Assembly: GCF_019599405.1 (NCBI RefSeq)
Contig: NZ_RKLQ01000002.1
Coordinates: 682,001 to 746,000, forward strand
Length of the DNA: 64,000 nucleotides
Source of the DNA: Haloarcula salinisoli
GTDB lineage: Archaea > Halobacteriota > Halobacteria > Halobacteriales > Haloarculaceae
Direction: 5' to 3'
Position numbers and translations under genes: made by a program. Below are positions 14,457 to 38,529 of the stretch, one piece after another (the stretch's first letter is position 1; the number at the start of each line of letters is the position of its first letter). The notes beneath the pieces were generated by a model, which ran no database searches, was not told the origin of the DNA, and saw nothing but the letters and a program-made list of their open reading frames with translations.

Positions 14457-14745
14457 GCCAGAAAGCCCCCGGCCCCTTTCAGTCCCACCCATATCGGCTG
14501 CCCAACCAGCTACGGGCGGGACTAAAAGGGGCGGCTGGCTGAACGAAGGCGGGCGACGTCCTCGCGAGAGCTCCGCTCTCGCGGGATGATGAAAATCGCT
14601 TCGCGATTTTCAGATCACAAGGACCGCAGGCCGAAGGCCGAGGACCGCAGCGAGGTCGTTCGGAAGACCGGTGGTCTTCCGTGATGACGAGAGAGCTTCG
14701 CTCTCTCGAACCACCCCCGAGTTCAGCCAGCCGGGGCTTTCTGGC
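14457..14745 (+). repeat. Structured intergenic element, copy A (long)
   Basis: One of three related elements. An outer inverted repeat GCCAGAAAGCCCC (14457-14469) pairs with GGGGCTTTCTGGC (14733-14745). An inner stem CCCCTTTCAGTCCCACCC (14473-14490) pairs with GGGCGGGACTAAAAGGGG (14514-14531). A third arm CGGCTGGCTGAAC (14532-14544) pairs perfectly with GTTCAGCCAGCCG (14721-14733). Inside the third arm lie four short perfect hairpins at 14563-14583, 14591-14611, 14662-14680 and 14688-14708. The element fills most of the 428 bases between the convergent ligA and ABC permease genes. I see no ORF in it, so a structured RNA, terminator complex or non-autonomous mobile element are all possible. 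Confidence 0.8.
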
Positions 14746-32558: not shown

Positions 32559-32829
32559 GCCAGAAAGCCCCGGCTGGCTCCGGTCGGAGGACTCGCTGTG
32601 CGCTTCCTTCGCTCACTTCGTTCGCTCAGTCCAGTGCTTACGTCGTCCGCCTTCCCGGAGCCAGCCGCCCCTTTCAGTCCCACCCAAGCCGGTTGGTCAG
32701 CCGGCTACGGGCGGGACTGAAAGGGGCGACCCGTTCGACGACGGCGGGCGACATAAGCACCGGAGCCGACCATCGGGAGGCGAGGAGCGCAGCGAGCCCC
32801 CCGAGTCGAACGGGTCGGGGCTTTCTGGC
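32559..32829 (+). repeat. Structured intergenic element, copy B (four-stem)
   Basis: Same family as the elements at 14457 and 38461. Outer arms GCCAGAAAGCCCC (32559-32571) and GGGGCTTTCTGGC (32817-32829). A first arm GGCTGGCTCCGG (32572-32583) pairs perfectly with CCGGAGCCAGCC (32655-32666); copy A lacks this arm. The inner stem CCCCTTTCAGTCCCACCC (32668-32685) pairs with GGGCGGGACTGAAAGGGG (32709-32726). A third arm CGACCCGTTCGAC (32727-32739) pairs perfectly with GTCGAACGGGTCG (32805-32817), a different sequence from copy A at the same place. It fills the gap between the convergent GNAT and flippase-like genes. The rest of 32511-32880 holds nothing else I can name. Confidence 0.8.
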
Positions 32830-38460: not shown

Positions 38461-38529
38461 GCCGGAAAGCCCCACCCATAGCCGGTTGGCCAATCAACGC
38501 TGGGTGGGACTGAAAGGGGGCTTTCTGGC
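38461..38529 (+). repeat. Structured intergenic element, copy C (short, deleted)
   Basis: The shortest member of the family. Outer arms GCCGGAAAGCCCC (38461-38473) and GGGGCTTTCTGGC (38517-38529). The inner stem keeps CCCACCCA on the left and TGGGTGGGACTGAAAGGGG on the right; the left partner of ACTGAAAGG is missing, as if a segment was lost between runs of C. First and third arms are absent. It lies between taw1 and the EamA gene in the same orientation as copies A and B. Confidence 0.75.

Follow-up and report, generated by a model that had tools for sequence, protein, structure and literature searches.

A covarying arm hairpin in inverted-pair intergenic elements of Halobacteria

The 64,000-nucleotide stretch of the Haloarcula salinisoli genome analyzed here (the window; contig NZ_RKLQ01000002.1, positions 682,001 to 746,000) contains three related elements, A, B, and C, inserted into intergenic DNA. 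They belong to an apparently undescribed family in which the independently covarying fold is a hairpin in the element arms, H, and not the inner and outer stems. A full copy is an inverted pair of a unit Q, written [NAAAG]GGGG–H–GGGG[CTTTN], in which H comprises 80–96 nt with ~28 pairs, conserved tandem G·A steps, and a GNA triloop. The covariation is significant and decisive for a single-stranded fold and does not separate RNA from single-stranded DNA. The chances appear evenly balanced that A, B, and C are copies of a non-autonomous REPIN-like mobile family of Halobacteria, with the folded single strand as the conserved, recognized part. This reading is ranked first and a structured RNA second, an order that is undecided.

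The full element consists of an outer arm GCCAGAAAGCCCC, a left hairpin H′, a central hairpin, the right hairpin H, and an outer arm GGGGCTTTCTGGC, with H′ being the reverse-complement type of H and each half of the element contributing one Q. Because the element is built from two inverted Q units, its inner and outer stems pair automatically; the same arrangement provides each strand with one correctly folding H arm and makes the element look alike from both sides. Most Q units in this genus occur as inverted pairs of ~270 bp linked through the central hairpin, and single Q units form their own closed palindrome around H (GCCAGAAAG...CTTTCTGGC). In copies from other genera, anchored on GGGG on either side, a 5-bp basal stem next to H is completely paired in 74 cases, with A-T/G-C and G-C/C-G changes. 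The outer arms also covary between genera: among 94 elements, the bases just outside GAAAGCCCC are A-T, C-G, or T-A, with the first two positions each paired in 89.

The fold of H was examined in a set of 54 arms selected by length and by GA at mirrored positions after helix 1, not by pairing. In this set, 97.7% of cells are paired compared to 68.0% in shuffles, 24 of 28 pairs have changed on both sides, and the covariation score reaches 0.715, compared to 0.191±0.010 after shuffling and at most 0.107 when slid. The tandem G·A steps sit between helices. Since GA after helix 1 was used in the selection, the set is biased for one of these steps; the second, which lies outside the selection, is G·A in 52 and A·G in 51 of the 54 arms. 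The apical step is G·A in 39 arms and a Watson-Crick pair in 12, and 138 of 183 apical loops are GNA triloops. A larger set of 318 unique arms with a recognizable stem (of 354) shows 95.2% Watson-Crick pairing in a 12-bp stem, which by itself is no evidence because these arms were selected for at least 8 of 12 stem pairs. The remainder includes 98 G·T and 21 A·C combinations (p 4e-13, an optimistic value because the arms are mutually related). A strand-symmetric mechanism would lead to equal numbers of both, and the 98:21 ratio indicates that the fold matters on the H strand.

This ratio also bears on mutational self-copying, in which template switching or arm-to-arm conversion during replication would keep hairpins perfect without selection on the fold. 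Such a process agrees with the perfect nested hairpins found within arms, which have 3-nt loops and no strand preference for loop type (44 GNA versus 51 TNC). Being strand symmetric, it predicts G·T equal to A·C, contrary to the observed counts, and template switching yields neither the non-Watson-Crick G·A steps nor the GNA apical loops. Self-copying is therefore already disfavored for H and improbable as a general explanation; for the nested modules, it may be a remaining candidate. Over hundreds of arms, the covariation and the excess of G·T far beyond A·C strongly support the proposal of a sequence-only reading of the window that differing sequences with preserved pairing reflect a selected fold. 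Homologous copies are plentiful and non-identical, and their covariation is significant.

Element B (positions 32559 to 32829) is a complete copy with two H arms. Its left outer arm (32559–32571, plus strand) is followed by a left H arm folding on the minus strand (32572–32667, GGCTGGCTCCGG...CCGGAGCCAGCC; covariance model 89.6 bits, E 4e-20), the reverse-complement type of the right arm. The central hairpin (32668–32726) is formed by inner arms at 32668–32685 and 32709–32726, and the right H arm, folding on the plus strand (32727–32816; 84.3 bits, E 8e-19), leads to the right outer arm (32817–32829, plus strand). Element A (14457–14745) is a one-armed copy. Its left outer arm GCCAGAAAGCCCC (14457–14469, plus strand) and central hairpin (14473–14531; inner arms 14473–14490 and 14514–14531) are followed by a right H arm on the plus strand (14532–14732) with the stem CGGCTGGCTGAAC/GTTCAGCCAGCC(G) and by the right outer arm GGGGCTTTCTGGC (14733–14745, plus strand). 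This H arm contains two nested double-hairpin modules at ~14560–14617 and ~14655–14714, and the covariance model matches the part between them (14616–14653, E 0.015). Modules of this type, with 3-nt loops closed by C-G, are found at a few fixed positions within the H arms of many copies. Element C (38461–38529) is a remnant without H arms, which retains the outer arms (38461–38473 and 38517–38529; one mismatch, GCCGG) and a right inner arm (38502–38519), its left inner arm having shrunk to ACCC. With one arm and no arm, respectively, A and C are partial copies.

Within the window, the inner-arm motif GGGACTGAAAGGGG gives 5 matches with up to 2 mismatches compared to 0.47 expected, and the outer arm gives 8 compared to 1.46 expected (0 of 100 shuffles in each case). 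The fold z-scores are −10.5 for A, −12.1 for B, and −2.7 for C. A and B are located in gaps between convergent genes and C in one between tandem genes, and the flanking genes are ordinary. The three elements lie at the coordinates given by the sequence-only reading and show the common outer and inner arms that it described, apart from the right inner arm being the only one left in C. The single variable third arm assigned to A and B is exact over 13 bp on the right-hand side of both, with the left H arm of B as an additional hairpin. A shared orientation just behind plus-strand genes had also been claimed; "same orientation" lacks a clear meaning because the full element is palindromic in design.

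The window belongs to a 4.03-Mb genome of the same genus as genome G002. A search of the whole genome with the inner arm, allowing one mismatch, gives 100 matches compared to 3 for a reversed control and corresponds to ~55 element loci. The covariance model of H, whose E-values are rough, recovers both arms of B in the window and yields 51 matches across 1.2 Mb of Haloarcula rara. It matches 46 of 79 Halobacteriales genomes and 24 of 37 genera, with 80 and 87 H copies in two more deeply searched genomes; within one genus and order, genomes range from no copies to dozens. Beyond the Halobacteriales, only rare, single matches to the exact inner-arm motif are seen. Haloarchaeal plasmids carry unannotated relatives, and a search for a virus or phage origin gave zero matches. 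Rfam gave zero matches in the window at gathering scores and zero credible matches at the elements in relatives, and a literature search with the motif strings, with subscription papers and supplements lying outside it, returned nothing relevant.

In the H. rara stretch, the 30 full copies are without exception intergenic and occupy tandem, divergent, and convergent gaps (gene calls made for this analysis by codon usage) roughly in the available proportions; a preference of these copies for gene 3′ ends was not found. In the same stretch, 40 of 48 H arms are paired within 330 bp, and none of the 48 lies in coding DNA. The proportional spread of full copies over the gap types does not support the earlier suggestion of a bidirectional terminator, nor an insulator between genes. 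The convergent gaps of A and B and the very stable folds fit such a role, but the share of convergent gaps among full copies (4 of 30) is no higher than among the available gaps of 200 bp or more (43 of 278), and site A is empty in many related species, which makes this explanation very improbable.

Comparison of the sites shows insertion polymorphism. Many related species (G002, G010, G041, G024, and others) have hardly any DNA between the two convergent genes at site A, and G007 contains a decayed remnant. Site B is filled in G000, G002, and G001 and empty in G008 and G022; site C is filled only in this genome among the genomes compared. Both flanks could be located in H. rara for ~25 sites, of which our count gives 17 with an element and 8 without. 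Together with the variation in copy number, this polymorphism supports the suggestion, made from the sequence alone, of a non-autonomous mobile element.

At 13 sites shared by this genome and H. rara, arms at the same site are no more alike than arms at different sites (identity, ignoring gaps, of 0.76 versus 0.77 for left and 0.79 versus 0.80 for right arms), and the DNA flanking the shared sites is mostly 90–95% identical. The only exceptions are L074 (both arms) and L073 (right arm), the former with a compensatory pair change and the clean insertion of a double-hairpin module. At L080, the center is identical and both arms differ, showing that parts are replaced independently. Inversion of the whole element as a cause of turnover is clear in L053 only and is not general; there, the right arm resembles the left arm of its H. 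rara counterpart at that site (L321:11862–12240; 0.92 identical), as would be seen after inversion of an arm or of the element. A recent donor copy as the source of exchanged arms was likewise rejected, with few near-identical arms in the genome (10 of 87 at 0.90 or above; median best match, 0.82). As a separate observation, 45-bp tandem arrays adjoin some elements (L057, L286:15730–16271, L035, L052, and L075), with a repeat unit built from the outer arm and a copy-specific flank ending in GCTAGC or GCTGGC and with up to six outer arms in a row.

A mechanism can be proposed for the REPIN-like element. A trans-acting enzyme would recognize the single strand in its folded state, which replication may expose or which may be extruded as a cruciform, and would move or copy the inverted pair, a role ascribed to the Y1 enzyme RAYT in bacterial REPINs. 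Selection would then act on the fold rather than on the letters, and recombination between copies together with nested hairpin insertions could exchange the arms of a given site without loss of the site or the fold. A fold at the DNA level is favored by the G·T bias of antisense arms, the many copies in divergent gaps, and the likeness to the GNA loops and G·A pairs of Streptomyces telomeres (PMC7205883). Several points weigh against the mobile element. Most sites are common to H. rara, which shows that current movement is slow; no precise insertion junction or target duplication was defined; and no mobilizing enzyme was found, the Y1 transposase (PF01797) not being detected in the high-copy genomes G198, G031 (81% complete), and G027. 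In genus g4, a single H stands behind an asymmetric conserved 5′ domain (GGTGGCGCGC...GAGGCTGGGGAGGCGTGAGGTGCGG...), so the inverted pair is not the sole form. Finally, the G·T excess is absent from divergent gaps (13:11 versus 46:8; p 0.008 in a post hoc comparison), which is not predicted by a purely DNA-level fold. In the g4 elements (L410–L418 and L425–L428), the base of H also contains an internal loop rich in G. The tetranucleotide CTAG, rare in these genomes, is enriched 4.4-fold relative to intergenic DNA ~30–90 bp outside the outer arms in this genome and G002, and 14 of 33 breaks in species alignments fall within 8 bp of a CTAG. The idea that it marks a clean cassette boundary or a target duplication was rejected, both CTAG at B being stop codons of the flanking genes.

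The missing bias in divergent gaps is among the points in favor of a class-wide structured RNA, a possible but less probable explanation in which the H strand is transcribed and the Q hairpin acts as RNA, for example in transcript-end protection, in protein binding, or as a small RNA. The inverted pair would here place one H arm on the transcript for either direction of insertion. The covariation and the tolerance of G·T (G-U in RNA) fit this explanation, and pairing is slightly better in sense-strand arms (1.7% versus 2.9% broken cells), a difference that was stronger in early data and fell to p 0.07 with more data. A separate class of GA/GNA-capped hairpins is sense oriented (22:5 clusters in tandem gaps; p 0.0015), and the g4 element has a direction: in 9 of 13 cases, the gene upstream of it lies on the H strand. 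Against an RNA, arms antisense to flanking genes retain the G·T bias (21:1), which speaks against selection via read-through transcripts; full copies occupy divergent gaps at the expected frequency (12 of 30), the loops are triloops instead of tetraloops, and Rfam matches are lacking. For either kind of nucleic acid, it is tentatively suggested that H represents a new class-wide functional single-stranded fold of Halobacteria with tandem G·A steps and a GNA triloop, of which each genome keeps dozens of intergenic copies, both as mobile pairs and as directional single units. Its sequence would be rewritten at fixed sites between species with site and shape being kept.

The separate hairpin class has the same cap (stem, GA, 2 bp, GNA loop, 2 bp, GA, stem) and counts 93 intergenic examples away from Q in 1.2 Mb of G002 (such as L291:19022–19288, L292:13356–13583, and L318:7985–8165), compared to 4 in coding DNA and 0–4 for control motifs. 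Some form head-to-tail chains beginning directly behind a gene. If the mobile interpretation of Q is true, Halobacteria would contain an abundant REPIN-like element spreading without the only enzyme known for REPINs, and its many diverged copies would be a natural experiment on selection of a single-stranded fold. A parallel to this arm turnover at constant sites is found in the unexplained "identically placed but unrelated sequences" reported for Haloquadratum (PMC3119063), and the covariance model offers a means to label dozens of unannotated intergenic features per genome.

With regard to known systems, canonical miniature inverted-repeat transposable elements share their ends with an autonomous transposon and show a target duplication; for Q, no autonomous partner was noticed and no clean junction found. 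Mitochondrial hairpin elements reside in organelle genomes, in contrast to Q, and have no sequence known to be shared with it. These repetitive hairpin and double-hairpin elements (PMC2800124) resemble Q in being dispersed, intergenic, and thought to be invasive. The palindromes of Streptomyces telomeres have GNA triloops with sheared G·A pairs capping their stems, function as single-stranded DNA, and are rapidly replaced by barely alignable sequences (PMC7205883); they are located at the ends of linear chromosomes, whereas Q is dispersed, and the analogy is structural only. PATEs, transposase-free elements with palindromes near their ends, are abundant in haloarchaea (PMC3119063), but they derive from IS605-type elements and lack inverted terminal repeats, in contrast to the inverted outer arms of Q elements, whose copy number Y1 does not track. 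SMR-A from Haloquadratum walsbyi, with ~110 bp, inverted terminal repeats, up to 54 copies per genome, and an enigmatic mobilization (PMC3119063), matches single Q units in size and ends, but most Q units occur in ~270-bp pairs. Compared by description only, copies of the same SMR-A type are commonly >95% identical and SMR-A target PATEs and IS605-type transposons, whereas Q units are strongly diverged and lie in ordinary intergenic DNA. REPINs are inverted doublets of REP sequences mobilized by RAYT (PMC3116915). Membership of Q in REPINs or other IS200/IS605 derivatives fails, Y1 transposase not being detected in the three high-copy genomes, and Y1 as the mobilizer was rejected for want of a link to copy number. 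A REP tag of the GTAG/CGTC type next to a 20- to 40-bp palindrome was not noticed in the listed copies, no search having been aimed at it. REP sequences measure 20–40 bp, whereas Q is an archaeal unit of ~100 nt with a multihelix, G·A-rich fold. Both families comprise inverted pairs and singlets of a short unit scattered over extragenic DNA, with predicted hairpins in single-stranded DNA or mRNA, compensatory changes, and tandem clusters including flanking sequence (PMC3116915), and REPINs are the best functional analogy for the Q elements.
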